DNA of 35,757 nucleotides from Bacillota bacterium (GTDB taxonomy: Bacteria; Bacillota; Dethiobacteria; DTU022; UBA8154): positions 1-35,757 of the forward strand of contig JAAYFF010000050.1 in NCBI GenBank assembly GCA_012728375.1. Reading direction: 5' to 3'. Each line of letters begins with the position of its first letter. The first letter of the stretch is position 1. The position numbers were made by a program, and so were the translations under genes. Below are positions 4,301 to 30,890 of the stretch, one piece after another. The notes below the pieces were generated by a model. It made no database searches and had not been told where the DNA came from. It saw nothing but the letters and a program-made list of their open reading frames with translations.

Positions 4301-4422
4301 GCAAGATCAAGAGCCGCTTGAATACCGCTGATCCCTCCGCCGACGACCATCACATCTACGAAATTACTGCCTGTAAGATTTCTAACAAGCTGATCTCCAA
4401 TTCTTTCTGCTTCTTTTTCCAT
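1330..4422 (-). CDS. hdrA: Heterodisulfide reductase subunit A-like protein, long form (1030 aa)
   Basis: HdrA is the FAD-containing core of flavin-based electron-bifurcating complexes. This copy is the long form with two flavoprotein halves. The first FAD Rossmann motif VVGGGISGIQ is at 26-35, with HdrA cysteine motifs at 72-75 (CSMC), 124-134 (CTGCTVCAEYC) and 178-185. A CHCG motif is near 474, a second FAD motif VVGGGVAGM is near 611, and two C-terminal [4Fe-4S] ferredoxin motifs are at 962-972 (CLSCGACIAAC) and 995-1005. GGATGGAG precedes the ATG. The MvhD-type gene follows immediately, the usual HdrA partner that feeds in electrons. HdrB and HdrC are not nearby, so the electron acceptor (disulfide, ferredoxin or another oxidoreductase) cannot be told from this locus. 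The family call is firm; the physiological reaction is open. Confidence 0.93.
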   Translation of the reverse strand: MEKEAERIGDQLVRNLTGSNFVDVMVVGGGISGIQAALDLATAGFKVYLVDSAPTIGGHMAQLDKTFPTNDCSMCIESPKFVECDRHPNIEIITYTEVEKVEGKAGDFRVTLTKKPRYIYESKCTGCTVCAEYCPVVYPDKFNQGISKNKAIHIYFAQAIPLKPYIDESCLYLQDKTCTICQGVCQSDAIDFTQKAETIEVKVGAIILAPGYEPYDPKLRDEYHYGEFENVVTSMDFERLLCATGPYEGEIRRASDKKHPRKIAWIHCVGSRQVTPGGNSYCSAVCCTYTQKQVILAKDHDAETECTIFHNDIRSYGKDFERFYQRAENLPGVRFIRSYSSIVREDPETKNIMVRYSTADDGVKEEEFEMVVLSVGLTPPADFKRLAETFGIELNAHGFCKVNPVNPMETSRPGIFVSGAFQGPLDIPESVMTASGAASQCGELLSYRRGNLSKERIYPPERDISGEEPRVGVYVCHCGANIGRVVNVPSAVEYALTLPHVVHAEENLFICSSESAAMLAKDIQERGLNRVVVAACTPRTHEPLFRDTLREAGINQYCFDMANIREHCSWVHSKEQDAVNQKAKDIIRMAVARACHLEPLEEFDLPVDKRALVVGGGVAGMTCALSIANQGHDVYLLEKEAELGGAARKIHYTLEGLDVQAYLRDLIKKVYQNPLIHVYTNTVITEATGYVGNFTTRINSGGRDLEIKHGATVIATGAEVYKPTEYLYGKDDRVMTHLELEELIVKGNEKITGAECLVMIQCVGCRNEDRNYCSRICCSESIKNALKLKEINPGMDVYILFRDMRTYGFKEDYYREAAGKEVRFIRYEPDDQPQVEAAADEEGRPVLKVIVPDYILGKKLEINADIVALAAAVVPSADRKEISQFFKVTLGPDEFFQEAHAKLRPVDFGAEGVYMCGMAHYPKLIPETVSQAYGAAGRVLTLLSHDTFTASGSVCSVDEENCLSCGACIAACKYGAIEFYETPRGRKALVNPILCKGDGLCNSICPTGAIQLKHYTDQQLLNQIDARFKV

Positions 4423-4472
4423 TTATCTCCATCCTTATCAGTTTTATTTACCCGCAATAATAAAAATAAGAA

Positions 4473-4497
4473 AGCGGGTTTACCGTCGTAACCCGCT
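4473..4497 (-). terminator. Rho-independent terminator-like hairpin upstream of hdrA
   Basis: The arms AGCGGGTT (4473-4480) and AACCCGCT (4490-4497) form an 8-bp stem. On the minus strand it is followed by a T-rich tract (TTTCTTATTTTTATT). It lies about 140 bases past the satP stop codon and about 50 bases before the hdrA start. It may end the satP transcript, or act as a 5' leader hairpin or attenuator for hdrA, since a candidate promoter lies just upstream. Confidence 0.6.
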
Positions 4498-4500
4498 AAA

Positions 4501-4530
4501 ATTCTATCAAATGACCTGAAATTTTCCCAA
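4501..4530 (-). promoter_or_regulatory. Candidate hdrA promoter
   Basis: On the minus strand TTGGGA (4525-4530) and TAGAAT (4501-4506) are separated by 18 bases, a fair sigma-A match. Transcription would start at the edge of the hairpin at 4473-4497, placing that hairpin at the very 5' end of the hdrA-mvhD message. Confidence 0.4.
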
Positions 4531-4634
4531 TACATTATTTCTATTTCCTTAATGGGATGTATCGTCGATATCTATTCAGTTTTTGAAGGAATAATAGAAA
4601 GTAAAAAGGCTAGTCCTTTAATTGAAGTTCCACG

Positions 4635-5210
4635 TTATTTAGACTTACCGCGTAATTCCTCCAACACTTGGGCTAAACCCGTGTAAATAGCTGAAAAACC
4701 GCAAATAATCCCTTCATATCCGGCAATTTTCGTGATTGCCATATTGCCTGTCCAGTCCCCCGCGGCAAGCAGGAAAAACAATATGGCCAGAGACCCAAAC
4801 ACAAATTGAAGACGCGGATTTATTTTAAGCGTTCCAATAAACATAACCGCTGTAAACAAACCCCACATAAAAAGATATGCTCCCATAGCAACGCTGTCAG
4901 CAGGATCTCCCCATGCTCCTTTAGGGATAACCAGTAAACCGACTAATGAAAGCCAGAAAAGTCCATAGGAAGTGAAGGCGGTAGTACCGAATGTATTGCC
5001 CTTTTTCCATTCCATTATTCCGGCAATAATCTGTGCTATCCCGCCATAAAAGATACCCATTGCCAAGATCATGCTGCTCATTCCAAAAAAGCCGGCATTG
5101 TGCAGATTGAGAAGCACTGTCGTCATTCCAAAACCTAATAATCCAAGGGGAGCCGGATTAGCTGTGGAATCCGCCATAGTGATAATTGATTTATTAGATT
5201 TTCCTTGCAT
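4635..5210 (-). CDS. satP: Acetate/succinate transporter, GPR1/FUN34/YaaH family
   Basis: This 191-aa membrane protein matches the AceTr (GPR1/FUN34/YaaH, SatP) family of acetate channels/transporters in length and pattern. The family signature NPAPLGL is at about residues 17-23 and is followed by six hydrophobic helices. The conserved NLHNAG segment is in the first helix and an [13 protein letters not shown] region lies mid-protein. GGAGGATGAAAT precedes the ATG. Its neighbourhood (an ADP-forming acyl-CoA synthetase two genes upstream) fits export or uptake of acetate or a similar short-chain acid, but the substrate is inferred from the family. It is probably a separate unit from hdrA because of the hairpin between them. 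A weak 5-bp hairpin with a short T-run sits at 4605-4619, right after the stop. Confidence 0.9.
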
Positions 5211-5563
5211 ATTTCATCCTCCATTATTAAATTTAAATTTAATCAAAAATAACGACCTGCAAGGTTGTGCCTGTCCCTTAAAAAAATAATTCCGACTGTA
5301 TTTTTTGAGAATAACAAATGTCATAAATTTTTTACTCTGTTGACGAATAAAACACAGCCCCTTTGATTATTTTGCGGGTTTTTTCACCACCCCCTTTTCT
5401 TATTGGCCTTTTATTTGCAGGTCTGACCTTTTTTTATCTTACCATATCTTATTACCAAAAGGTATTATAGCCGGAAAATCAAAAAACGTCCACGGTGTTG
5501 CCCTTTTAAATATATTTTCACAAGTAAGCCGTATAAAAGGGCTTTTGATGTTGTTCTTTATTG
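5211..5563. other. Intergenic region with satP control signals
   Basis: No gene is seen in these 353 bases. Next to the satP ribosome binding site is a perfect 18-bp AT palindrome, ATTAAATTTAAATTTAAT (5226-5243). A weak minus-strand promoter candidate, ATGACA (5319-5324) and TACAGT (5295-5300) with an 18-base spacer, lies behind it. Downstream of the DUF554 gene a 9-bp inverted repeat, GCCCTTTTA (5500-5508) / TAAAAGGGC (5534-5542) with a 25-base loop, could be a transcript end, though it lacks a clean T-run on the minus strand. Confidence 0.4.
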
Positions 5564-6259
5564 TTATACTGGATATAAGGCGGCAAAAAGAAGGCTTAAA
5601 GGAATCGCCACAAAAATTCCCGGAAGGAGATTGCCTACTTTAATTTCTTTTATTTGAAGAATATTCAAGCCGATGCCGACAATCAACAAACCTCCGGTTG
5701 CACTCATTTCCGTAATAATTGGCTGGGAAAGAACATTCTGCAATAAACCGGCCGCCAGGGTAATTGCTCCTTGATATAAAAGCACCGGAATTGCGGAGGC
5801 TAATACCCCGGCTCCCATGGATGTGGCAAACACAATTGCAGTAGTGCCGTCTATCAACGACTTGACCATCAGGATGCTATGGTTTCCTTTAATTCCGCTT
5901 TCAATGGCTCCCGTTATGCTCATCGCCCCTATACAATAGATCAAGCTCGCGCTGATAAAGGCTCTGGTAAAACGTCCATCTTCACCGCTTATGAATTTAT
6001 TTTCCATCCAGGTTCCAAAGCTTTTTAATTTTTTCTCAATATCAATCCATTCTCCGATAACTCCGCCGATAACGAGTGAGCCAATCACAACAAGAGAATT
6101 ATTTGTCTGTAAAGCCATATCAATTCCGACCAGAAGCACGGCCAGGCCTAAGCCCTGCATTATCGTTGAATTCATTTTTTCCGGCATGGCATGGCCAAAC
6201 AGAAGGCCCAAAGCCCCGCCCAAAATTATTGCTGTAGCGTTGACAATTGTCCCCAGCAT
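5564..6259 (-). CDS. DUF554 family membrane protein (YdfK-like)
   Basis: This is a 231-aa polytopic membrane protein of the DUF554 family (Bacillus YdfK-like), which has the family's usual length. It shows glycine-rich transmembrane helices such as IILGGALGLLFG near the N-terminus, a conserved GxxxGxxxxIE segment (IGGVIGEWIDIEKKL) and ISASLIYCIGAMSITGAIE in mid-protein. The biochemical role of the family is unknown. I start it at the ATG at 6259, which has AGGGG eight bases upstream. A TTG two codons earlier is too close to that ribosome binding site. It follows the acyl-CoA synthetase gene by about 90 bases on the same strand with no clear terminator between them, so the two may share a transcript. 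Confidence 0.88.
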   Translation of the reverse strand: MLGTIVNATAIILGGALGLLFGHAMPEKMNSTIMQGLGLAVLLVGIDMALQTNNSLVVIGSLVIGGVIGEWIDIEKKLKSFGTWMENKFISGEDGRFTRAFISASLIYCIGAMSITGAIESGIKGNHSILMVKSLIDGTTAIVFATSMGAGVLASAIPVLLYQGAITLAAGLLQNVLSQPIITEMSATGGLLIVGIGLNILQIKEIKVGNLLPGIFVAIPLSLLFAALYPV

Positions 6260-18370: not shown

Positions 18371-18772
18371 TTAAGCTTTATGTTCTATTTCCGTAACACA
18401 TCCGCTTTTAATTTTTTCCACAAGAAACTGGAGAGCAGCAACAACATGGGGCCTAATATCGCCGCCGATGAGGACATACATGATGTCATCCCCGATTTCC
18501 AGCCGGCCCTCATTCAGCCACACTTTAACATAGTATATTCCGTCCATCTTGTATGTTTCCGCAATGGCTTCCTCAACTTTTGCCGCATCATAGGAAAAGT
18601 CCATTCCTTTTACCAATGAACCATCATCAAGCCCCTGGCGGACCTTTGCTTTAGGCGTTTGGCGCACAATGCCATTATGAACTAAAAACATCCCTACCTT
18701 TGAAGCAGAAGGGTCTGCTTTTGCTTCCTTAAGCCATTCATCAATAGACGGCGGTGTTTTTTTATTAACCAT
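18371..18772 (-). CDS. moaE: MoaE-like molybdopterin synthase catalytic subunit homologue
   Basis: This 133-aa protein resembles the divergent MoaE-type proteins of anaerobic Firmicutes. After a short N-terminal helix (SIDEWLKEAKADPSASKVGM) comes the hot-dog-like core FLVHNGIVRQTPKAKVRQG. It ends in the typical strand-helix WLNEGRLEIGDDIMYVLIGG / DIRPHVVAALQFLVEKIK. Genuine MoaE transfers sulfur to precursor Z together with MoaD. Here the early catalytic loop differs from E. coli MoaE, and no other moa gene is nearby, so a related but different role is possible. AAGGAGCG precedes the ATG. Confidence 0.75.
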   Translation of the reverse strand: MVNKKTPPSIDEWLKEAKADPSASKVGMFLVHNGIVRQTPKAKVRQGLDDGSLVKGMDFSYDAAKVEEAIAETYKMDGIYYVKVWLNEGRLEIGDDIMYVLIGGDIRPHVVAALQFLVEKIKSGCVTEIEHKA

Positions 18773-18836: not shown

Positions 18837-18920
18837 GTGAAGCAGGGGGACGGTTCCATCGTCTTCCCATTGGTCCTTCGCTTCGCTACGGAGACGATCG
18901 AACCGTCCCCGCAGCTTCAC
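18837..18920. repeat. Long imperfect inverted repeat (REP/MITE-like hairpin)
   Basis: An 84-base element folds into an almost continuous ~30-bp stem. GTGAAGC, GGGGACGGTTC and ATCGTCT on the left pair with AGACGAT, GAACCGTCCCC and GCTTCAC on the right, around a ~22-base loop. GGGGACGGTTC palindromes of this kind recur as dispersed intergenic repeats in Clostridia genomes (from memory). The surrounding 301-base gap (18773-19073) holds no gene. It also contains a 7-bp hairpin ACAACAG/CTGTTGT (18990-19006) and, just before the following stop codon, an AGCAAA/TTTGCT hairpin that could be a weak terminator for the B12 operon. Confidence 0.7.
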
Positions 18921-19073: not shown

Positions 19074-20519
19074 CTAAGATCCGCTCTGTTCTAAAAAACG
19101 CATCAGACTGTAAGCGCACTGGGCACGGGTAGCCGGCCTTGCGGCATCGAAACCGCCGTATAAAAGTCCCTTTTCCCGGGCGACCCGTACGGATCCGGCA
19201 TACCAAGCCTCGCCCGGTTTCGCAACAGTTCGTTCTTCCTCACCAAGGGCACGCACCAGGATGGTCATTACCTCGGCACCGCTGATATTGTCGGCCGGAG
19301 CGAAAAGGTTTTTATCTTTCCCCCTGATCAAATTATGCTCAACAGCTACACGTATATAAGGGTTTGCCCAGTGTGATGGGGGAACATCGGCAAAACGGGT
19401 AGTTGTAAGATTTGATCCGGGAGACTTGCCCAGTGCAGCCACGATCATTTTGGCAAATTCATCTCTTCTGACCGGGTTTTGAGGACGAAATGTCCCGTCA
19501 GGATAACCGCTTAAAACCTGTCGAAACACAAGTTCACTCACATCAGCGAAAGCGCTGTGATTAGGCGGCAAGTCGGTAAATCCGGCATTTTTCCTGTGCA
19601 GCAGCGTATAGATGCTTTCCCCGCGGTTTACATCGCCCAGGGCAGCTAAAGCCTGGTAAGTGGAAATAAAATCCATTTCTCCGCCAGGGCGACGGCTAAA
19701 AGAACCGTCGGCACGCCGGTAACGGAGCAGGGCAGAAACCAGGCTGCCGCCTTTGCGCGTCCACTCCCGCCCGGCCGGGTCGATGTCCAGCATAATCAGC
19801 CCGTGAATTACCTGGGCAATAGATTCGGGGCCGCTGCTGCTCCAGGGAGAAAAATCCCCGTTATCCTGTTGCTGGGACTTTAAATAGTTCAGGGCCTTCC
19901 GCACAGCAGGGTGATCAGCGTCCAGGCCCAATGCGGCAAAGGCCATCAGGGCCATACCGGTCATATCCACATCAGAACTGCTCATGCCTGTTTCCACGCT
20001 GAACCCCCCATCCTCCTTCTGGTTGTTGACCAACCAGCTAAGGGCCCTAAATCTGTTGGGGATCGGCTCACCGGCCACATAGAGGGAAAGGATGCCCCAG
20101 ATGTGGGCATTAACAAGGTTTTCGCCCTCGCCGGAAATAAGATCGCCAAATTTACCGCTTTCCCTTTGTGAATCCTTAACCTTTTGCACCAGGTTGTAGC
20201 CTCCGAAGTTTCGCGGGTTTACCCCCGCGGCTACGGCCCCCACAATGGTGCGGTGATAATCAGTGCTGCGCCGGGCATCAAAGAGCTCTCCCCGTCTTAC
20301 CTGCTGTTCCCGGATGCGGATTAAACTGTCCACCTTCTCCCCCGCACCAACCAGAGCCAGGATAGGCCAGTCCAGCCGCTCAGAAAAATTGCTTGCGCCA
20401 ACCGCTTGACGCACATGCCTGACGGTGGACGAGAGGTCCTGTGTTGTTGCCAGGAGCGGCGCGGGCAACATAGAAAAAAACATGATGAAAAGTAGCACTA
20501 GGCAAAGAACTTTCTTCAT
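19074..20519 (-). CDS. SLH-anchored alpha/alpha-toroid (prenyltransferase/squalene-oxidase repeat) surface protein
   Basis: This 481-aa exported protein is the last gene of the B12-riboswitch operon. A signal peptide covers about residues 1-25 (hydrophobic core then PAPLLA). Residues ~45-310 form a terpenoid-cyclase-like alpha/alpha toroid with the repeat motif Q-x-x-x-G-x-F (NQKEDGGFS, QQQDNGDFS, RRADGSFS). Three SLH domains (from FADVSELVFRQVLSGYPDGT at ~325 to the end) tether it to the cell wall. The toroid matches the N-terminal half of intrinsic factor and transcobalamin in fold class. No cyclase DxDD/DxDDT motif is seen, consistent with binding rather than catalysis (inferred). GGAGG precedes the ATG, and the gene begins two bases after the S-component stop codon. 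Confidence 0.85.
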   Translation of the reverse strand: MKKVLCLVLLFIMFFSMLPAPLLATTQDLSSTVRHVRQAVGASNFSERLDWPILALVGAGEKVDSLIRIREQQVRRGELFDARRSTDYHRTIVGAVAAGVNPRNFGGYNLVQKVKDSQRESGKFGDLISGEGENLVNAHIWGILSLYVAGEPIPNRFRALSWLVNNQKEDGGFSVETGMSSSDVDMTGMALMAFAALGLDADHPAVRKALNYLKSQQQDNGDFSPWSSSGPESIAQVIHGLIMLDIDPAGREWTRKGGSLVSALLRYRRADGSFSRRPGGEMDFISTYQALAALGDVNRGESIYTLLHRKNAGFTDLPPNHSAFADVSELVFRQVLSGYPDGTFRPQNPVRRDEFAKMIVAALGKSPGSNLTTTRFADVPPSHWANPYIRVAVEHNLIRGKDKNLFAPADNISGAEVMTILVRALGEEERTVAKPGEAWYAGSVRVAREKGLLYGGFDAARPATRAQCAYSLMRFLEQSGS

Positions 20520-20521
20520 AG

Positions 20522-21169
20522 TTAATCCTCCTTTTTTCCCTGGACTGTCTTTTCAGATATTGGGTAAAAAGACAATCTTCGTTTAAACCTTCTTAAAATT
20601 TCAGCCGCTTCAGGACCCAGAAAAACCATAAATAAGGCATTGGACATTGCATGCATGAAGTCAAAACCAATTCCCGCGAGGATAGTTGCAATAAAGGATT
20701 GAATTGTCAGGGGGTAGACAAATGTAATCCAGTGCCAGAAATTCATAATCCACCCAAAGACAAATCCCCAGATGAAACCCATTCCGGCAAAAAACCAGCG
20801 GGGAAACATTTTCTTTTTCCGAAAAATGACTCCTCCGCACACACCTGCAAGCCCCCAGGCCAGCATCTGCCACGGGGTCCAGGGACCCTGCCCCAGGAAC
20901 AAATTTGAAGTAAAAGCAGCCGTGGAGCCGACAAGAAAGCCGGCCACAGGACCAAAAACATGGCCGCATACCAAGACCAAAAAGGTAGTGGGCTGCAAAC
21001 CGGGAACAGCGGCAAAGGGCACCCTCCCCAGGCCGGCCAGGGCGGCAAGGGTAGCAATAACGGCAATTTCTGCCGGGGCAATGCGGCGCCGTTCATACCA
21101 GAGATAAACAGCAGCCAGGGCGGTAACCGCCATAATTAGGCTGAAAAGGGAAAGGTATGTCGTGCTCAT
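20522..21169 (-). CDS. cbrT: ECF transporter S component, CbrT-like (cobalamin)
   Basis: This 215-aa integral membrane protein has about six helices. It carries the pattern of a B12-type ECF substrate-binding subunit: GRVPFAAVPGLQPTTFLVLV, GPVAGFLVGSTAAFTSNLFL and GQGPWTPWQMLAWGLAG. The GPWTPWQM segment is typical of CbrT-like S components. Its start overlaps the ATPase stop in an ATGA tetranucleotide, indicating translational coupling. Specificity for cobalamin (or a corrinoid/precursor) is inferred from the riboswitch that heads the operon and from the CbrT-like sequence. The C-terminal tail is basic and cytoplasmic. Confidence 0.82.
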   Translation of the reverse strand: MSTTYLSLFSLIMAVTALAAVYLWYERRRIAPAEIAVIATLAALAGLGRVPFAAVPGLQPTTFLVLVCGHVFGPVAGFLVGSTAAFTSNLFLGQGPWTPWQMLAWGLAGVCGGVIFRKKKMFPRWFFAGMGFIWGFVFGWIMNFWHWITFVYPLTIQSFIATILAGIGFDFMHAMSNALFMVFLGPEAAEILRRFKRRLSFYPISEKTVQGKKED

Positions 21170-22830
21170 TTTTCTACCCCATGCTGCCGGTTAGTCAATT
21201 TGCGCAAGGCCGCCTCCACAGTGGGCACGTTTTCATCCATACCCCGGAAAAGACGGTTTATCTGGGGAGCATAGTACAGGGAATTGGCAAGCACCGTTTC
21301 CCGGTCTCCATCGGCTACTACCTGGCCGTCATGGAGGATCAGCACCCTTGTTGCCACTTCGGCAGCAAACTCCACGTCGTGCGTTACCACCACGATTGTT
21401 TTTCCCTTATCCTGGATTTTTTGCAACAAACTTGCCAGATGCTCTTTCATCGCCGGATCCAAACCCCTGGTAGGCTCATCGAGCAGCAGGATATCCGGAT
21501 CAGTAACCAGCACAGCGCCAAGGGCAATGCGCTGTCTTTCTCCTCCGCTGCCATCCCGGGGATGGGCCTCTGCAAGGTGTTCGATCTCTAATAGTTGCAT
21601 CGTTTTTTTAACCCGCTCAGGATTTTTGCTGCCGCGCACCTTGATTCCGTAAGCAATTTCCTCCTGCACCGTATTATGAAAGAGATAATCGTTTGGATCC
21701 TGGGAAAGATAGGCAATACGGTCAGCAAGCGTTTCTGCACGCTTTCCCGTTATTTCCCCTCCTTTTAGAAAAATCTTCCCCCTTTGAGGGGATAAAAGTC
21801 CGTTAATCGTTTTGAGCAGAGTAGTTTTTCCTGCCCCGTTTTCCCCCAGGATGACCGTAATTTCGCCGGGATAAAAGGAAAGGTTAATACCCTTCAGGCA
21901 AGGCGACCGGCTGTCATAGGCAAATTCCAAGTCTCTTATCTGCAGGAGGGGAGACGCGGGAACGCCTGCCCTTTGAACAGCTCTATTTTTTATCTCCGCG
22001 GTAAGGGGCAAGCCGTTTTGTTGCAGCAGTTTCCGCGCTTCTTTGATGGTCAGGGGGATGCTTCCCAACCCCAGCTGTGCAAAAAACCGGGCAACAGGAG
22101 GCATGAAAGAGCGGTATTGCCCTCCCCCCCAGGAGGCCATTTCCCGGGGTGTCCCCTGATGGATTACTTTGCCCCGCTCCATCAGCACAATCCGGTCAGC
22201 AAGGTGAAAACAACGGTCTGTTCTTTGTTCCACCAGGATAACCGTAAATCCCCATTCCAGATTAAGGCGCTGGATATAATTAAGCAGTTCTTGGGCTGAC
22301 ACAGGGTCCAACTGGGATGTCGGCTCATCCAAAAGGAGTACCCGGGGATACATTGCCAGCACGGATGCCAGCACGACTTTTTGCTTTTGTCCCCCCGAAA
22401 GAGTGAAAGCGGAACGTTTTCTCAGCGCTGTCAAATCGAAAAGAGAGAGAACTTCCGCCACGCGCCGTCTCATTTCAGCAGGATCAATGCCCAAATTCTC
22501 CAGGCCAAAAGCTATTTCCTGTTCCACGGAGGTCATCACCAACTGCTGTTCCGGATCCTGAAAAACCAGGCCCACTTCCCGGGCCAGACGCTTTTTATCC
22601 CAACTGCCCAAAGGACGGCCGGCATAACGAATCTCCCCCCCGATGGCCCCTCCATAATAATCGGGGATCAGACCGGCCAGCGCCCGCAGCAGGGATGACT
22701 TGCCGCAACCGGAAGCACCTGTAAGCAGAACAAATTCTCCTTCGCTAATTTTCAAATTAATATCAATGAGAGCCCCGTCATTTTTTTCGGGGTAGTAGTA
22801 GGTTAAATTTTCCACCTCAAAAAGTTCCAC
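21166..22830 (-). CDS. cbrU: ECF transporter fused A1-A2 ATPase, CbrU-like
   Basis: Two ABC ATPase domains in one 554-aa chain energise the ECF transporter. Domain 1 has Walker A GASGCGKSS (38-46), Q-loop QDPEQQ (91-96), signature LSGGQ (144-148) and Walker B LLLDEP (165-170). Domain 2 has Walker A GENGAGKTT (329-337), the slightly degenerate signature GSGGER (427-432) and LLLDEP (448-453). The joined A1-A2 form is common for cobalamin-linked ECF modules. The GTG start (22830) lies within the end of the T-component gene (28-base overlap), behind GGTGGAATAA. The second signature has G for the leading L, so activity may be asymmetric between sites (inference). Confidence 0.92.
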   Translation of the reverse strand: MELFEVENLTYYYPEKNDGALIDINLKISEGEFVLLTGASGCGKSSLLRALAGLIPDYYGGAIGGEIRYAGRPLGSWDKKRLAREVGLVFQDPEQQLVMTSVEQEIAFGLENLGIDPAEMRRRVAEVLSLFDLTALRKRSAFTLSGGQKQKVVLASVLAMYPRVLLLDEPTSQLDPVSAQELLNYIQRLNLEWGFTVILVEQRTDRCFHLADRIVLMERGKVIHQGTPREMASWGGGQYRSFMPPVARFFAQLGLGSIPLTIKEARKLLQQNGLPLTAEIKNRAVQRAGVPASPLLQIRDLEFAYDSRSPCLKGINLSFYPGEITVILGENGAGKTTLLKTINGLLSPQRGKIFLKGGEITGKRAETLADRIAYLSQDPNDYLFHNTVQEEIAYGIKVRGSKNPERVKKTMQLLEIEHLAEAHPRDGSGGERQRIALGAVLVTDPDILLLDEPTRGLDPAMKEHLASLLQKIQDKGKTIVVVTHDVEFAAEVATRVLILHDGQVVADGDRETVLANSLYYAPQINRLFRGMDENVPTVEAALRKLTNRQHGVEK

Positions 22831-23723
22831 TTATTCCACCCCCAGGCTAATAAGGCCGGAATCATGAGCATGACAAACAAAGCCGGCAAAACCGCGGCCT
22901 GATGCGGGGAAATAATAATTTTCTCCAGATACGGATAAAATGAATAACCTCCCCATCCCCGGCCCAGGCTAAGAATAATAATGGACAAGGCAAAAAAAGA
23001 AGCAATGAATATAAGGGTATCCCCAAAGCGCCAGCGGTGACGGAAATAACTGGTGCGGGAGCCGCTCCCGTAAGCCCTGGCCTGGATGCTTTCCCCTATG
23101 TTAAAGCTGTCTTCCAGGGAAGAAATCAAGAGCACCCGGATCAGCGGCAACCGGTTTTTAATCCTGGTAAAAAGGCTGCCCGTATGAAAGTTTGCTCCCC
23201 GGCACTGGGCAATCTCCCCTGCGCTTTGCAGCTTGCGCAAAAGATAAGGAATGGTTTTGGTGGCCAGCGCCACCAGCAGGGCAGAGCGGGGAAACAATTT
23301 GGCAAACATGGAAAGGGCCCGGTCAGGGTTAACTGTACGGTTATAAAGCATGAAAGCAGTAAACACGGTTAGCAGGCGAAACCCCATTACCAGCGCAAAA
23401 ACCAAAGTTTCCAGGGTAACGGTTATTCTTCCCAGTCCGGGAAGCACGGGACCATACAGTAAAACAGTGCCCCCAAGGCGGTTGATCAGTATGTTGATCA
23501 ATGCGAGCATGGCAATGAGCGCGAAAAAAAAGCGTGCCTTCTGAAACCAGTCATCCAGGCCTCCCGAAGCTGCCAAAGCCGTAAAAACGGGGATAAAAAG
23601 GGCCAGTAGAAATAAGGGATGGCAGAGCGTCACCGCTCCCGCAACAATAACCGCCAAATAGGCGAGGGTTGCAGCAGGATGGAGGGCTTGAAAAAACAAA
23701 TCTTTTTCCTGAAAAATAAGCAT
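22803..23723 (-). CDS. cbrV: ECF transporter T component, CbiQ-family (CbrV-like)
   Basis: This 306-aa transmembrane scaffold belongs to the CbiQ/EcfT family. It links the ATPase to the S component through two coupling-helix motifs of the Ala-Arg-Gly type: QCRGANF (173-179) and QARAYG (214-219). Hydrophobic helices fill the first ~130 residues, and a last helix pair follows the coupling region. AAGGAGACTTCC precedes the ATG. It lies between the DUF4430 lipoprotein and the fused ATPase in the operon. Because it is dedicated to one operon with its own A and S proteins, this is a group-I (single-substrate) ECF transporter. Confidence 0.9.
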   Translation of the reverse strand: MLIFQEKDLFFQALHPAATLAYLAVIVAGAVTLCHPLFLLALFIPVFTALAASGGLDDWFQKARFFFALIAMLALINILINRLGGTVLLYGPVLPGLGRITVTLETLVFALVMGFRLLTVFTAFMLYNRTVNPDRALSMFAKLFPRSALLVALATKTIPYLLRKLQSAGEIAQCRGANFHTGSLFTRIKNRLPLIRVLLISSLEDSFNIGESIQARAYGSGSRTSYFRHRWRFGDTLIFIASFFALSIIILSLGRGWGGYSFYPYLEKIIISPHQAAVLPALFVMLMIPALLAWGWNKWNFLRWKI

Positions 23724-23793
23724 GGAAGTCTCCTTTTTTCGTCATCCAATACCTTTTGCAGCACAGCAGCGTCTATTGCTTACCATCCCCTGT

Positions 23794-24777
23794 CTACTCT
23801 CCACTGCCTGCTGTCTGCGGCAAGCCCAAAACCTTGCCGTGTACCACCAGAGCCCCCACTTTTTTTTCAAATTGCCCGGGATTTTCCACCAAAGCATTCA
23901 CCAATCCGGCCAGGCCTTCCGGATCAGTGGCAGTGACAAGCCAGAGGGGATGGGGATCCCCTAAGCCTGCTGCGGTAGCCAGGACAGCCCCGGTTTTTTC
24001 TCCAAACCCTTCGTTCTGCCGCAGGGCATGCTCGTCGAGGGGGTAAAAGCGCCCGGGTGTCAGCTCAGCAAACCAACCCGTCCGATCCCGGTGCTGCTGG
24101 ATACCTTCCCAAAAAGGGCTCCCGCAGAGCTGTTCCCAAAGGGCTACAACCAGAACCATTTGGGAACGGTTCGACGCGGCTGTCTCCGAATAAGGGACCA
24201 CTTCCACAGATTTGGCACCCGCTTCTTCCAGGAAGCCGGCCAGTTGCCCTGCCCACTTGTCGCATCCCTCACCGGCCAGGATGAGCGTATCCCGGGTTTT
24301 CCCCCCGTAACCACCGCTGAAAGGCTGGGGAAAGGCCCCCACCACCGCGGGAGTAAAGGCAATTTCACCCCAGGGACGGTAATCCCACCAGATGACATCC
24401 CCGTCGGCAGGAACATATTCAGCCGGGCCCTCATCGGAAAGAATGCCATTGACATAGTAGAACCAGTCCACTTTCTGCTGCTCCTCGCCCGTTTTTCTGC
24501 TGTAACCGGACGCGAAACCGTTAATAGCATTAACAAAACCGCCGCCGTATTCCGTTTCCACATCCAGATGCTCCTTTAACAGTTCCATGACAGACTTGTT
24601 TGGTGCTACGGGCACTTCGGAGCAAAAGATGTCTTCTGCACCGAAATCCCGGGTTACCCAGAGACTTACAGTCCCTGCAGCATCTGCCGGCAATTCTGCG
24701 GGGGGGCTGCATCCCCCCGCAAACACCATTAGAATAATTAACAGGCAGTTAAAAAAGACCTGTTTATTGATTCCCAT
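23794..24777 (-). CDS. DUF4430 lipoprotein, putative surface cobalamin-binding protein
   Basis: This 327-aa lipoprotein begins with a signal peptide ending in a lipobox (VFAGGC, C23 as lipidation site). Residues ~35-135 form a DUF4430 domain, a beta fold related to the C-terminal domain of transcobalamin and intrinsic factor, with the characteristic WFYYVNG (105-111) and DGDVIWW (125-131) motifs. The remaining ~190 residues (two or more alpha/beta segments with AGEGCDKWAGQLAGFLEEAG and VVALWEQLCGSPFWEG) match no family that I recognise. AGGAGGAAGAGC precedes the ATG, and it sits 28 bases after the large SLH protein gene. It likely hands a corrinoid to the ECF transporter encoded next; this is inferred. 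Confidence 0.85.
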   Translation of the reverse strand: MGINKQVFFNCLLIILMVFAGGCSPPAELPADAAGTVSLWVTRDFGAEDIFCSEVPVAPNKSVMELLKEHLDVETEYGGGFVNAINGFASGYSRKTGEEQQKVDWFYYVNGILSDEGPAEYVPADGDVIWWDYRPWGEIAFTPAVVGAFPQPFSGGYGGKTRDTLILAGEGCDKWAGQLAGFLEEAGAKSVEVVPYSETAASNRSQMVLVVALWEQLCGSPFWEGIQQHRDRTGWFAELTPGRFYPLDEHALRQNEGFGEKTGAVLATAAGLGDPHPLWLVTATDPEGLAGLVNALVENPGQFEKKVGALVVHGKVLGLPQTAGSGE

Positions 24778-24805
24778 ATGCTCTTCCTCCTGTCTGGACC
24801 AATTA

Positions 24806-27800
24806 TCAACTACCGACCTGTTCCTTTAATATTAATAAACCGTACAATACTACCGCTGCCTGCGCACGTGTCGTTGTCCCCAGCGGCTGGAAGGAACCGT
24901 CGGGAAAACCTTTCATCAAGCCCCTTGAAACTGCTTTGATTACGCCGTCTTTGGCCCAGGGTGCAATCATCCCGGCATCCGCGAAAGAAACATCCGCCAT
25001 TTCCATGTCAGCAGCAGGAATATTTACCCGGGAAAGCATCACGGCCATCTGCTCACGGGTAATCTTTTCATCCGGTTGGAATGCCGTTTCCGTAACCCCT
25101 TTGACAATCCCTGCCTGCATGGCTGCATTTACCGCATCAAAATACCAGGACCCTTTGCTGATGTCTGTAAAGGGAGACTCCGTCTCTCCCCGGGCATCCA
25201 AACCTAAAGCGTTAACCAGCATGACGGCAAATTCAGCCCGGGTCACTTCCCTTGAAGGTTCGAACCTGCCCTCTCCTACACCTTTGATGATGCCGTGCCC
25301 GGCCAGGTAATTGACGGCCTCGTAAGCCCAGGGGTAGCTTTCCGGCGTGACATCATTAAAGGCAGGCACAGCGCCGGCAGGTTCCTCTCCTTTTTGCGGG
25401 GCGAAAACAGCAAAGATGGAAAAGTGGTCCAAAAGGGCGCTGATGTACCCGCTGGATAGATCCACTACTGCAGGCAGGGCATACCATTGATCATTTTTTT
25501 CATCCAGCCAGGCAAGCACCAGTTCAGCCGGCAGGTGCTCATGGGGTACAGCCAGGCGGATAGAGAAAAACACCGGCCTGGAAAACTCCGTGCCCCCCGG
25601 TCCCAGGCGGTAAACAGGGGAAACAGGTTTATGGTTCAGCGCGGCAGGCAAATTGACGGCAGATATCTCTTCCACTGTAAATTCGGCACCCTTGGCAAGA
25701 GAACCCCCATCCACCTGCAGCAGAACCTCTCCGATAGTATCGCTGATCACGGTATCCTCACCGGGATCGACAAGCTGGAATATACTTACAATGTTCTCTT
25801 GCAACTTCTTTCTAAGGTCCTCTTTTTCTTCTTCACCCATGGGTGAGCCGGAACCTATGACGACGGTCAGGTTTAAGGCCTTCTCCAAAGGTATGGCTTT
25901 AATGCCGTCTTGCCGTAATGCCGCGAGCTGCTTGCGGGCAGAAGAAATGATTTCTCTGAGCCTTTCCATCTCCTGAGGCGTAAGGGCTGTTGTCGGTATC
26001 CTCGGAGCTGCTCCGGCACCTGGTCCGGTCACACCGGCATCAGCAGCCCAAAACCATATCACCTCATCGCCGTTGCCAACGCTGTACGATTTTGCCGGAA
26101 CATCGGGTATAACACCGTTCACCATGTACTTCCAGCCGGCTGTCGTGGTCAGGTCCTCCCTCTCCCCTGCTATTTCATAAACATATGCATCGTTTTCCCG
26201 GGTAGAAAACGGAATGCCTGTCTCTCTCAAGGCTTCCAGGGCATTGGCCCGGTTGGCAGGTAGGACCACATTCCTGAAAAAATAATCGAAACTTTTCCCG
26301 GTAACCTGAACCGAAACACTGATGGATGAAGATGCTTGGCCGCCGCTGCCGGGAGAAGAACCATTGTTTCCTGTTTCAGGAGTGTAAGCAACAAACTTGG
26401 TGAAGTGGGTGGTCCAGATTACCAGGTCATCTCCAACATCAATTTTACCCGCCTCACCTGAAGAAAGCTCTGCCGACGCTGCCATCCGGGAATCGCTACT
26501 GAGCGTTTTAGTGATCTCCGTTACCGGTGCACCGGCCCTTGTATAGCCGATCGATTTGCCGGCCTGTCCGGGGATAAGCAACCTGACAGGCTTGTCGAAA
26601 TCCAACTGCCCCTCGGGGAAGCCCAGCTCGATTACAGCGCTCACCGTGCCATCGCTTACATTTACGCTACTATTATCCAGCAGCTTGGGCAGTTTGATGC
26701 TGCCGTTCCAGTTGCCGGGGCCGCTTACCTTCGTTCCCTGAAAAATATCGAGTCTTACAATCCCCAGTGGGGACGTTGCCTCAACTTCTATGGAAGGCAA
26801 CGTGGCTGTTTCTTTATCTCCTTCAGTTGTGGTAGAAGCATTTAGCCTGGCTCCTGCCGCACCCTGGGGAATGGTAATGCTTAAAGGGGCATCATCTACC
26901 CGGATGGCAGATTCTTCAATAGCAAGATCTTCCCCGACTGCTACCAGCCCGGATATGACCGCAGCATTGGTGTTGGCGTTTTCCGCACCCCACTCCCCGG
27001 GCATGGCAAAACCGCCGCCTTCCTGCTGTCTGCCCTTCAGGAAGGTAAGGGCATCATTAATAGCAGCATTAACATCAACACCTGGATCCTCCATGTAGTT
27101 GGAGAGGGCGACCAGCGCCCATCCCGTGTTGTCCAGCTGGCTGAAGGCGCCGAAACTTCCATCGTGATTCTGTTGCGCTAAGAGGTAATTAACAGCGCTT
27201 TCCCGGTTGGCTGCCGCTGACCAGCTGCCCACGTTTTTTCCAAGCTCCCTGCCCGCATCCAGGGCAACGATAGCCCAGATGTGTTTGCCAAGTTCACCGA
27301 AGGAACCGTTTTCCTGCTGCTGGTCCGCCAGTTCTGCAAAAAGGTTCCTGTTACCCCAGATATTGGCGGGATCAAGTCCTACTGACAGTAACCTGAAGAT
27401 ATAATGAATGTGTTCATTACCCGTCGCATCTGCAGCGAACCCGGGATCGGTGTTCCGCCAACCCTGGGTACATTGCCAGGGCGCACTGTTCAGATCTTCT
27501 CCTGCCGTGCGCAGCGCGGGAAGTCCTTCCCAGTTTTCGGGTGCAGGGTAATTAGTCTGATACCACTTCACCGCCTTTTTGATCGCCCTGGAAAGTGTTT
27601 CGTGTTTCGGGTCATAATCCGGGGCCTGGCCAGCTCTGTGCTTGGTTGACTCGCCGTAAGCCAGATCAACCAGCGCTGCCAGCGACTGGGCTGTCGCGCC
27701 TTTAACCGCGCCTGCCGTGTCTTCCTGCCACCAGAAGCTTCCGTCCGCCTGCTGAAATTTTAGAAGAGCGTCGAGTACCGTATGGCCGTTTTTCACCCAA

Positions 27801-28597
27801 TCGCTGTCAAGTGGGTCAAGCGTTACTGTTTTTTTTCCAACGGTCAAGGAAACTGTGGGCCACTGATACCGGCTGGATTCATTGTTCCACTCCGCGTAAG
27901 GATAGAAAGTGCCCGTTTGATTTAAAGTGAAAGACAGTTTACCCGAGCCGTCCGTCTGTCCGATTGGTGTATCGGCAGCAACCGGGCTGCCCCAGTCATC
28001 TAATTCACCACTAACGTAAATATCTGCTCCTTCAACCAGGGTAGTATTACCATCGCCGTCAGTATATTGAACCGATACAGTTACTGTCTCGCCCGCTTCA
28101 ATTTCATTTTTGTCAATGCCTAGTGAAAGAGTATAACGAGCGAGGTTGGAGTGTACAAAGTGCAAGGAATCCCCATCAGAAAGGGTGTATTGATCCGCTC
28201 CCACCATTGGTGATGTTCCATTGACATAGTAGGACCAATAGCCTTTATTGCTATCGTCATCGCCAATCTGGTCAACAGTGATACCCCAGCCCCAGTCCTT
28301 TATTTCAAAATTAATTCCTTCTTCATAGACATAAGCAGCCACAGCTCCCATGGCCGTGTGGCGATCAAGGGTATGCCCGCTGATTGTTATCTCTCCGGCC
28401 GCGACCTCGTAATTTTCTACATTAAATATATCACCGTCAAGGCCGGTGGCACGCAGATTAACAGTAATTGTCGGCTCAGGATCGCTGTTATTGGCCATTA
28501 CAGCAGTCAGCATCACGAAAGATAATATGAATAAAAGGCTTAACAACCATGTCAGACGATTCCTGATAACTTTTCCTTTCGCTCCATGATGTGACAT
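24806..28597 (-). CDS. Large SLH-anchored protein with DUF4430-toroid-DUF4430 architecture
   Basis: This 1263-aa exported protein is the first gene behind the cobalamin riboswitch. In order: signal peptide (~13-36); DUF4430 (~43-152; YWSYYVNG, DGDSLHFVHS); an Ig-like domain (~155-255); an alpha/alpha toroid (~265-560) with Q-x-x-x-G-x-F repeats (QQADGSFWW, QQENGSFGE, QNHDGSFGA, QQEGGGFAM); a beta-rich linker; a second DUF4430 (~762-852; WKYMVNG, GDEVIWFW); a helical plus beta region ending in ALLDHFSIFAVFAP; and three SLH domains (~1077-1263). The toroid plus DUF4430 combination is the domain set of animal intrinsic factor/transcobalamin, here tethered to a bacterial wall. The start is the ATG at 28597 with GGGGAGG ten bases upstream; a GTG 15 codons earlier lacks a ribosome binding site. 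The cobalamin-binding role is inferred. Confidence 0.88.
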   Translation of the reverse strand: MSHHGAKGKVIRNRLTWLLSLLFILSFVMLTAVMANNSDPEPTITVNLRATGLDGDIFNVENYEVAAGEITISGHTLDRHTAMGAVAAYVYEEGINFEIKDWGWGITVDQIGDDDSNKGYWSYYVNGTSPMVGADQYTLSDGDSLHFVHSNLARYTLSLGIDKNEIEAGETVTVSVQYTDGDGNTTLVEGADIYVSGELDDWGSPVAADTPIGQTDGSGKLSFTLNQTGTFYPYAEWNNESSRYQWPTVSLTVGKKTVTLDPLDSDWVKNGHTVLDALLKFQQADGSFWWQEDTAGAVKGATAQSLAALVDLAYGESTKHRAGQAPDYDPKHETLSRAIKKAVKWYQTNYPAPENWEGLPALRTAGEDLNSAPWQCTQGWRNTDPGFAADATGNEHIHYIFRLLSVGLDPANIWGNRNLFAELADQQQENGSFGELGKHIWAIVALDAGRELGKNVGSWSAAANRESAVNYLLAQQNHDGSFGAFSQLDNTGWALVALSNYMEDPGVDVNAAINDALTFLKGRQQEGGGFAMPGEWGAENANTNAAVISGLVAVGEDLAIEESAIRVDDAPLSITIPQGAAGARLNASTTTEGDKETATLPSIEVEATSPLGIVRLDIFQGTKVSGPGNWNGSIKLPKLLDNSSVNVSDGTVSAVIELGFPEGQLDFDKPVRLLIPGQAGKSIGYTRAGAPVTEITKTLSSDSRMAASAELSSGEAGKIDVGDDLVIWTTHFTKFVAYTPETGNNGSSPGSGGQASSSISVSVQVTGKSFDYFFRNVVLPANRANALEALRETGIPFSTRENDAYVYEIAGEREDLTTTAGWKYMVNGVIPDVPAKSYSVGNGDEVIWFWAADAGVTGPGAGAAPRIPTTALTPQEMERLREIISSARKQLAALRQDGIKAIPLEKALNLTVVIGSGSPMGEEEKEDLRKKLQENIVSIFQLVDPGEDTVISDTIGEVLLQVDGGSLAKGAEFTVEEISAVNLPAALNHKPVSPVYRLGPGGTEFSRPVFFSIRLAVPHEHLPAELVLAWLDEKNDQWYALPAVVDLSSGYISALLDHFSIFAVFAPQKGEEPAGAVPAFNDVTPESYPWAYEAVNYLAGHGIIKGVGEGRFEPSREVTRAEFAVMLVNALGLDARGETESPFTDISKGSWYFDAVNAAMQAGIVKGVTETAFQPDEKITREQMAVMLSRVNIPAADMEMADVSFADAGMIAPWAKDGVIKAVSRGLMKGFPDGSFQPLGTTTRAQAAVVLYGLLILKEQVGS

Positions 28598-28640
28598 TGC
28601 AGAAAACCTCCCCTCGTTTAATCGAAAATCCCGGTGTAAC

Positions 28641-28667
28641 ACAAACCCCGGCTACCGGCAGCCGGGG
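28641..28667 (-). terminator. Terminator of the riboswitch expression platform
   Basis: On the minus strand CCCCGGCT and AGCCGGGG (8-bp stem, loop GCCGGT) are followed by TTTGTGTT. It lies between the riboswitch aptamer and the first start codon, with the ribosome binding site further downstream. This is the layout expected for a B12-dependent transcription terminator. An alternative helix with the preceding CCCTA...TAGGG segment could act as antiterminator. Confidence 0.75.
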
Positions 28668-28739
28668 TCAAAGAGGTTTATGTATTATTGTCATAAATAA
28701 CACCACCTTCCCCTATAACCCGTAGGGTAGTAGTAACAT

Positions 28740-28900
28740 AAACAGGCAGGTCTCCTGGCTCGGGTTCGTTGCCGTTTTCGCCTTCCCATCCGGGTAAATG
28801 TTTGTCGGACAGTGGCCAAATGAAAACAGCTCCCCCTTACAGTGGCGGGACCGCGCCGGACTTTCACCGGCTTCCCTATTAACCCCAAAGGGACCTGTTT
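28740..28900 (-). ncRNA. Cobalamin (AdoCbl-class) riboswitch
   Basis: Read on the minus strand, the 161-base element has the classic conserved core. P1 is closed by AAACAGG (5') and CCTGTTT (3'). The run AGCCGGTGAAAGTCC is followed by GCGGTCCCGCCACTGTAA, then GCCACTG, GGGAAGGCG and the B12 box GAGCCAGGAGACCTGCC. It sits in a ~325-base leader between a promoter and the first gene of the operon, with a terminator hairpin after it. Cobalamin binding is expected to switch expression off. It is firm evidence that the whole downstream unit is tied to cobalamin supply. The ligand subclass (adenosyl- or methyl-/aquo-) is not resolved. Confidence 0.95.
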
Positions 28901-28930
28901 AAAAGCATATTTATTTTTCTATTTATTCAT

Positions 28931-29052: not shown

Positions 29053-29111
29053 TAAGTTATTGATTTTTCTTAATGGCAGCTCTAATTAAAAAATAAATGA
29101 GGGTTTTCAAC

Positions 29112-30890
29112 ATGGAACAAATAACGCTGATTATTGAAGACCTCAAGCATTTGCGTGAGATGCTGGCGTCAGACGAAATTTGTACGCATTCAGCAGTGGC
29201 CGGAACAATTCTTGTACAGCTTTATACCGCTCGAAATGAAGGGGCATGGCTCCAGGCCGTTGCCGTGGAGATAGAAAAAGCATTGCCGGCTGTGGTGGTG
29301 GGAGTGACAACAGTCGGAGAGATCGCGGGCGGCTCTTCGCTCTCCGGGAAAACGGTGGCTGCATTTTCCTTTTTTCGCTCATCCCAAGCTGATCCCATTA
29401 TCTTGTCATGCCGTCCGGGGGAAGAACTGATGGTTGGACGCTCCCTTGCCCACAAGATCGAACGCTTAGGTGTTAATGTCAAGGGTATGCTCCTGCTGGC
29501 CACCCCCCTCAGTATAAATGTTCATTATGTCTTACGGGGAATGGCGGAGTCCTCCCTTTGCTTTCCGGTATTCGGAGGTGGAGCAGGAGATTATGCCTCC
29601 ATGAATATTTCTTTTGTCTCATACGGTTCAACCTCCCTCTCCGGGGGAATAGTTGCTGTGGTGCTTTCCGGGCCGGAGCTCCATGTGGAGCAGCTGGCCT
29701 GCCTCGGCTGGAAGCCATTGAGCAAGGAGATGACAATTACAAGTACAGACGGCATGCTGGTTAAATCTATTGACGGCAAGCCGGCATTTTCAATTTATCA
29801 GTACTATCTTGGCATTTCCAACGATGATACCTTTTCCGTCAGCGCCATAGAGTTCCCTCTCCTGCTGCAGCGGGAGGATGAATGCCTGGCGCGCATACCG
29901 GTTGCAGTGGAAAAGGATGGCGCTTTACGATTCCTTGCGGATATTAACACAGGAGAAAAGGTTCGTTTGGGGTATGGCAATCCTGAAATGATTATCGACG
30001 ATTCCAAGCGAGCTCAACAGCGCATGGAGAGTTTTGTTCCGGAGGCAATTTTTCTTTATTCCTGCGGAACCCGCCGCTTTTTAATGCAGGAAGACGTGGA
30101 GCTGGAGACCGGCCCCTTTGAAAAAATCGCCCCAACTGCTGGATTTTATACCTATGGAGAATTTTGCGGCACATCCAACAACTTGTCCCTATTAAACGGA
30201 AACCTGGTAGTTGTCGGCTTGCGGGAAGGCCCGCCGCGACAGCGGAAAAGAACTGTCACAGCTGCTGATACAATAATCGCCGATCCTGTTCCTAATGACC
30301 CCTATGCACACAAACATATGAAGATTATTGCACGGCTGCTTCATTTTATTGAGGTTGTGACAACGGAACTGGAACATTCCAATTCCGAACTGGCCCGGCT
30401 CTCAGTAACAGATAAACTGACCCAGCTTTACAACCGCTTGAAGCTGGATGAGATGCTGACCCGTGAGCTTTGCCGTGCCAAGCGCTACGGTTCAAGATTT
30501 TCCGTTATTCTTTGCGATATTGATTACTTTAAGTCTGTAAACGACCTCTATGGTCATCAGGTGGGGGACAAAGTTCTTGTGGAGTTTGCCAAAGTCCTGA
30601 AGAATAATCTGCGGAAATCGGACGTTCTGGGGCGGTGGGGCGGTGAAGAGTTCCTGATCATCATGCCCGAAAATGGTATCGAGGAAGCAGAGATGCTGGC
30701 GGACAAGCTGTGCAAAAGAATAAGCGAACATGAATTTCCGGTAGTTAAACAGGTGACCTGCAGTTTTGGTATTGCTGCCTATCAAACGGGCGATACTGAA
30801 GACACCCTGCTGGCACGGGCTGATAAAGCTCTTTATGAAGCAAAGCAGGGCGGCCGCAACAGAATCGTGATCAGCCAGCCCGTGCTTTGA
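29112..30890 (+). CDS. FIST-domain diguanylate cyclase (GGDEF)
   Basis: This 592-aa predicted cytosolic signalling protein has FIST_N (about 25-215, with VVVGVTTVGEIAG) and FIST_C (about 225-370, with FVPEAIFLYSCGTRR and GFYTYGEF), a sensory pair thought to bind small ligands such as amino acids. A short helix and a GGDEF domain from ~425 follow. The active-site motif is GGEEF (near 510), with the metal/substrate strand CDIDYFKSVNDLYGHQVGD. An RxxD inhibitory site (RKSD) lies five residues before GGEEF, so product feedback by c-di-GMP is likely. I start at the ATG at 29112, which has GAGGG nine bases upstream; an ATG five codons earlier has none. It is divergent from the B12-riboswitch operon. 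Confidence 0.9.
   Translation: MEQITLIIEDLKHLREMLASDEICTHSAVAGTILVQLYTARNEGAWLQAVAVEIEKALPAVVVGVTTVGEIAGGSSLSGKTVAAFSFFRSSQADPIILSCRPGEELMVGRSLAHKIERLGVNVKGMLLLATPLSINVHYVLRGMAESSLCFPVFGGGAGDYASMNISFVSYGSTSLSGGIVAVVLSGPELHVEQLACLGWKPLSKEMTITSTDGMLVKSIDGKPAFSIYQYYLGISNDDTFSVSAIEFPLLLQREDECLARIPVAVEKDGALRFLADINTGEKVRLGYGNPEMIIDDSKRAQQRMESFVPEAIFLYSCGTRRFLMQEDVELETGPFEKIAPTAGFYTYGEFCGTSNNLSLLNGNLVVVGLREGPPRQRKRTVTAADTIIADPVPNDPYAHKHMKIIARLLHFIEVVTTELEHSNSELARLSVTDKLTQLYNRLKLDEMLTRELCRAKRYGSRFSVILCDIDYFKSVNDLYGHQVGDKVLVEFAKVLKNNLRKSDVLGRWGGEEFLIIMPENGIEEAEMLADKLCKRISEHEFPVVKQVTCSFGIAAYQTGDTEDTLLARADKALYEAKQGGRNRIVISQPVL

Follow-up and report, generated by a model that had tools for sequence, protein, structure and literature searches.

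What could a bacterium gain from an operon that places relatives of the human B12 carrier proteins and an ECF transporter behind a cobalamin riboswitch? The window analysed here, a stretch of 35,757 nucleotides that coincides with an entire contig, G000:C2, in a Bacillota draft genome of 2.38 Mb, contains such an operon: six genes in the same direction on the minus strand, 3' of one full cobalamin riboswitch. We consider it likely, at a probability of roughly four in five, that this operon serves to capture corrinoids (B12 and/or cobinamide) and import them, and that it is off when cobalamin is plentiful.

An operon behind a cobalamin riboswitch

The riboswitch aptamer (28728-28913, minus strand) matches the complete RF00174 model (positions 1-189) with 123.8 bits (gathering score, 31.5; E-value 7.3e-31). 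Between the aptamer and the first gene sits a terminator-like hairpin (28645-28668, minus strand), read from the sequence as ACCCCGGCT-GCCGGT-AGCCGGGGT followed by TTTGTGTT, and the minimum-energy fold contains an 11-bp stem at this site. The hairpin is likely the expression platform: transcription would pass the riboswitch when cobalamin is scarce and would terminate when it is plentiful. The program-listed start of the first gene, GTG at 28642, was rejected because it falls within the tail of the hairpin (28668-28645), and translation likely begins at the ATG at 28597, which is preceded by GGGGAGG. Divergently from the riboswitch, a FIST sensor-GGDEF fusion is encoded (29097-30890, plus strand).

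The first gene encodes a large surface protein of 1263 aa (24806-28597) with an N-terminal signal region, a DUF4430 domain, an alpha/alpha toroid, a linker, a second DUF4430 domain, a ZU5-like region recognised by eye, and three SLH repeats. It is followed by genes for a DUF4430 lipoprotein (23794-24777), the EcfT transmembrane component (22803-23723; Pfam CbiQ, 1.1e-6), a fused double ECF ATPase, A1A2 (21166-22830; two ABC_tran stretches and a TIGR04521 match of 389.8 bits, cut-off 330), an S component of the CbrT family (20522-21169), and a secreted toroid-SLH protein (19074-20519; Pfam Prenyltrans 4.9e-11, SLH 5.1e-23), with C-terminal SLH repeats and without a DUF4430 domain; all six lie on the minus strand. 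EcfT and the two ECF ATPases are both present and adjacent, and the analysis bears out the inventory that had been predicted from the DNA alone, namely, a riboswitch, two SLH-bearing toroid proteins, a DUF4430 lipoprotein and T, A1A2 and S components on the minus strand. The intergenic spacings are, in order, +28, +70, -28, -4 and +2 nt, so that the transcription unit is tight, and the description of the genes as tightly spaced or overlapping holds (gaps of +28 to -28 nt, that of +70 nt aside). The SLH repeats would anchor both toroid proteins to the cell wall. SLH anchoring needs a CsaB-type pyruvyltransferase, and a protein of this family is encoded in the genome, which has four SLH-repeat proteins, two of them from the operon.

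The region downstream of the operon contains a gene whose stand-alone product weakly matches MoaE (18371-18772, minus strand, 301 bp from the operon; 5.8e-9), as well as a small dispersed palindromic repeat (18846-18910), a 19-nt inverted repeat with arms GGGGACGGTTC...; the 18-mer GAAGCAGGGGGACGGTTC at 18839-18856 has 6 copies in the genome and 0 in the control.

A profile search of the 2.38 Mb genome found no DUF4430 outside the operon, and the genome has only three cobalamin riboswitches; because, in addition, the layout recurs across the phylum, the operon appears to be more than a chance assembly. DUF4430 is present in 90 of the 299 genomes of the phylum, and 96 loci taken from the DUF4430-bearing genomes were scanned with a covariance model and one profile per gene. 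Clusters with DUF4430, EcfT and ATPase number 65. For 56 of them the contig extends 800 nt or more upstream, and all 56 are accompanied by a cobalamin riboswitch (55 directly upstream, 1 inside), as detected with a covariance model whose 14 training riboswitches came partly from such loci; Rfam's own model detected it in all 14 of the loci that were sampled. The background density of 1.46 riboswitches per Mb, estimated from 15 genomes, implies that a same-strand riboswitch would occur by chance within 1.5 kb upstream at about 0.1% of loci. The original prediction had set such a survey as its own possible refutation, through occurrence of these proteins next to unrelated ECF systems as often as next to B12-linked ones; the linkage proved to be universal among the 56 clusters, with S components of the CbrT type.

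When the S component alone was used to search named genomes, a similar set of neighbours emerged. The best 80 of the 591 matches of this second search yielded 74 clusters with T and A components, among which DUF4430 is encoded in 70, a toroid in 62 and SLH repeats in 25; a riboswitch is found in 46 of the 60 clusters that have upstream sequence, those without it including archaea and several lactobacilli. The archaeal versions among these best 80 matches are without a toroid. Eleven loci carry tandem cobalamin riboswitches. Small pairs of DUF4430 and S component genes without a riboswitch were observed at four loci (L083:4701-8167 and three others), the pair in L083 near genes for an oxaloacetate decarboxylase beta subunit and an SDR enzyme; some riboswitch-less pairs adjoin unrelated genes.

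The transporter, its cargo and its fusions to toroids

The nature of the imported compound is indicated by the S component. Its sole PDB sequence match is chain A of 6FNP (E-value 7e-7, nearly full length), that is, ECF-CbrT, for which uptake of cobalamin and cobinamide has been shown experimentally (PMC5997447). A family profile built from 26 S components of DUF4430 loci matches CbrT (6fnp_A) at 1.5e-33, the next S component, 4hzu_S, following at 0.002. With a sole match of this kind and such a separation of the profile scores, the substrate class is well supported by homology, as is membership of the S component in the family of the B12 importer CbrT, in agreement with the CbrT-type assignment originally proposed.

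Kinship with CbrT also bears on the possibility that B12 itself is not the cargo and that the system handles cobalt, cobinamide, lower ligands or a cobamide other than cobalamin instead. A 2007 study of this protein clade tied the operons to CbiO/CbiQ cobalt-transport parts (PMC1796856), cobinamide is also carried by CbrT (PMC5997447), and the host has genes for corrin synthesis along with CobU, CbiB and CobS for salvage. However, the S component is CbrT-like, and CbrT binds cobalamin, whereas a metal ion would need no large toroid/beta sandwich, so we give this alternative a slim chance; cobinamide or other cobamides as cargo are, in any case, compatible with the corrinoid capture-and-import reading.

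Gene fusions link the transporter to the surface proteins. In locus L116, which belongs to the phylum of the window, a single 737-aa frame (3812-6025, minus strand) encodes an S component, a membrane segment, a toroid homologous to that of the toroid-SLH protein of the window, and SLH repeats; frames of 566 and 573 aa that join S component and toroid are present in two actinobacterial MAGs (L198:5349-7049 and L212:9962-11683, both plus strand). In all three fusions, the S component is of the CbrT type and the toroid is extracellular; fusions of this kind suggest that the two cooperate at the membrane. A long open reading frame in L198 that seemingly fuses DUF4430 to the ATPases was discarded as apparent read-through within a GC-rich frame. 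Elsewhere in L116 (9529-13299, minus strand), a large surface protein contains two near-identical consecutive toroids of about 280 aa each, by its sequence a recent internal duplication. At six further loci, both ECF ATPases and the S component share one frame of about 830-940 aa, an arrangement that would prevent the S component from leaving its module.

Surface proteins and the transcobalamin fold

The PF14478 (DUF4430) profile matches the lipoprotein at 7.4e-14 and the large protein, in two stretches, at 1.4e-21; the SLH repeats of the latter score 1.4e-42. The lipoprotein, in which a lipobox, VFAGGC, was recognised by eye, yielded a confident AlphaFold model from an alignment of named relatives (mean pLDDT 90.4, pTM 0.89). 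In Foldseek comparisons, its DUF4430 part aligned with the beta domain of human transcobalamin (5no0) at a TM(target) of 0.68, and more entries for transcobalamin, haptocorrin and intrinsic factor appear among the matches; for the modelled first DUF4430 domain of the large protein, 5no0 is the best PDB match (TM(target) 0.74). As modelled, then, both domains have the transcobalamin beta domain as their best match or among the best. In the lipoprotein model, a helix (41-48) is followed by strands 51-54 and 59-63, a hairpin after the helix that the 2007 study describes as a feature of the transcobalamin-like clade of the SLBB superfamily (PMC1796856). The C-terminal domain of the lipoprotein (about 180 aa; 23797-24357, minus strand) matched no Pfam family; Foldseek gives a fold match to BcsB, and the domain is found in relatives, archaea included.

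These comparisons, together with the riboswitch linkage and the fusions, bear on a different interpretation of the surface proteins, under which the ECF transporter imports B12 while the toroid and DUF4430 proteins bind a polysaccharide, a peptide or a redox ligand, or serve as a wall scaffold, the riboswitch reflecting co-regulation only. Corrinoid binding by these proteins is, after all, something that we infer; DUF4430 lies beside genes without a B12 link in L083 and four other loci; a reviewer of the 2007 paper cautioned against assuming B12 for all members (PMC1796856); and a Ruminococcus gnavus protein of similar fold, 3u7z, which appears in the Foldseek lists of both DUF4430 domains, is titled a putative metal-binding protein. 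Against this, the riboswitch linkage is nearly universal, fusions of S component and toroid exist, and the best fold match is the very domain with which transcobalamin holds B12, so that a role of another kind seems unlikely.

The toroids are harder to place. Pfam does not call that of the large protein, which was recognised through weak cyclase matches and a toroid profile from relatives. The model of the N-terminal DUF4430-toroid part has a pTM of 0.57, with part of the toroid below a pLDDT of 50, and Foldseek matches the modelled toroid to terpene cyclases rather than to transcobalamin. The weakness of the model is explained partly by the apparently unusual order of the helices; the toroid segments (26900-27800, minus strand) are arranged unlike those of most relatives, as if circularly permuted. 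A profile made from 18 toroid-DUF4430 modules of relatives is more informative: its alignment with haptocorrin (4kki) covers positions 29-381 of 400 (E-value 9.8e-8), and among the 40 matches listed, 4kki alone has its best stretch across both toroid and DUF4430, stronger matches, such as squalene-hopene cyclase, spanning the toroid repeats only. Searches of PDB sequences with a DUF4430-only profile (A4) and with a profile of the toroid end plus DUF4430 (A8) gave no transcobalamin match; therefore, it is the full-module profile and the fold comparison that support the sequence link. The prediction that toroid and DUF4430 form the fold pair of transcobalamin was thus upheld for the DUF4430 fold and for the modules of relatives. 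For the toroid of the window, the comparison shows less: the order in the large protein is DUF4430-toroid-linker-DUF4430, its model matched the beta domain only, and the modelled toroid, which points to cyclases, is too weak for superposition.

Given these matches, could the toroid proteins be extracellular enzymes resembling terpene cyclases or prenyltransferases? Squalene-hopene cyclase and drimenyl diphosphate synthase are indeed the top sequence and toroid-fold matches, but the proteins are secreted and SLH-anchored, and the DxDD motif of the cyclases is not intact (the toroid-SLH protein reads DVDM and the large protein LDNT; only 20 of the 222 toroid stretches from relatives have DxDD[TS]). 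On the evidence of this motif, cyclase activity was set aside as highly improbable.

Under corrinoid capture, the wall-anchored toroid proteins and the membrane-anchored DUF4430 lipoprotein would bind corrinoids in much the manner of the alpha and beta domains of transcobalamin. The ligand could be sandwiched between toroid and DUF4430 in cis, within the large protein, or, alternatively, held jointly in trans by the toroid-SLH protein and the lipoprotein, and would then pass to the CbrT-type S component for import by the EcfT-ATPase module. Separately made alpha and beta domains of transcobalamin assemble on Cbl, and the isolated human beta domain binds CNCbl and cobinamide (PMC5599065), which makes a split arrangement, with the toroid bound to the wall and the DUF4430 lipoprotein to the membrane, plausible by analogy. 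More tentatively, and with odds somewhat against it, one can envisage a split, wall-spanning transcobalamin in which the clamp forms only with a corrinoid, whereupon the toroid docks on the S component for hand-over; fusions of S component and toroid would be the covalent version of such docking. If this is the case, the split clamp would be a dedicated extracellular donor for an ECF transporter, as opposed to CbrT, in which binding has been described for the S component itself.

Host corrinoid metabolism and known systems

The other two cobalamin riboswitches of the genome head operons for B12 uptake and synthesis. One (G000:C75:1765-14091) precedes BtuCDF-type genes and a corrin-ring operon of the anaerobic type, with CbiA, CbiC, CbiD, tetrapyrrole methylases, CbiG, CbiJ and CbiK; the other (G000:C13:1741-9061) precedes BtuF/BtuC-type genes along with CobU, CbiB, CobS and others. 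Judging by these genes, the host probably synthesizes corrin rings and has another uptake route besides the ECF operon, so that the need for a capture system is not obvious; recapture of lost corrinoid and competition are possible uses.

The idea of B12 capture at the surface is a rediscovery of a published prediction, strengthened here by independent tests. Burroughs, Balaji, Iyer and Aravind described in 2007 a transcobalamin-like clade of the SLBB superfamily in low-GC Gram-positives, reported toroid fusions in both orders, a second SLBB protein per operon and CbiO/CbiQ neighbours, and predicted a role in B12 scavenging and transfer to animals (PMC1796856). The window shares with that clade the DUF4430/SLBB domain with the hairpin after the helix, the toroid fusion, secretion, the second SLBB protein and the CbiO/CbiQ-like genes. 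The text of that study mentions no riboswitch and, in the passages considered, no S component; here, a riboswitch and a CbrT-type S component can be named, and the host, with its corrin-ring operon, misfits the statement that such bacteria usually lack B12 synthesis (PMC1796856). The additions are, accordingly, the nearly universal riboswitch, the CbrT identity, the fusions of S component and toroid, and a host with both corrin synthesis and BtuCDF-type uptake.

In the open-licence literature, we found the 2007 prediction and no experimental proof of B12 binding by DUF4430 or transcobalamin-like bacterial proteins, so that the prediction has seemingly gone without a bench test for almost twenty years; that the operon is a member of this predicted, apparently bench-unproven kind of system is well supported. 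Because riboswitch linkage, CbrT kinship and the fusions name the domains and pairs concerned, the question is directly testable. If the prediction is true, many Gram-positives and, in reduced form, some archaea capture B12 with relatives of the human B12 carriers, which would bear on competition for B12 between microbes and hosts, and the animal carriers would descend from a bacterial kit, as the 2007 study proposed (PMC1796856).

Among characterized systems, ECF-CbrT of Lactobacillus delbrueckii has an S component of the same family and, likewise, EcfT and ATPases of the ECF type. There, however, a single ECF module serves CbrT along with other S components, and the gene context is nrdJ-cbrS-cbrT-pduO (PMC5997447), whereas the S component of the window has its own T and fused A1A2 as well as wall-anchored proteins. 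BtuG of Bacteroides, a surface lipoprotein that catches B12 before the importer, works with the outer-membrane protein BtuB (PMC6143338) and offers a functional analogy. A structural parallel is seen with transcobalamin, haptocorrin and intrinsic factor, which combine a toroid with a beta-grasp domain as the window proteins do; the beta-domain fold is common to both, and modules of relatives match haptocorrin end to end. Yet the animal carriers are each one soluble chain with the toroid first, whereas the predicted bacterial counterpart would be anchored to wall or membrane and split over several proteins, with DUF4430 flanking the toroid on both sides.
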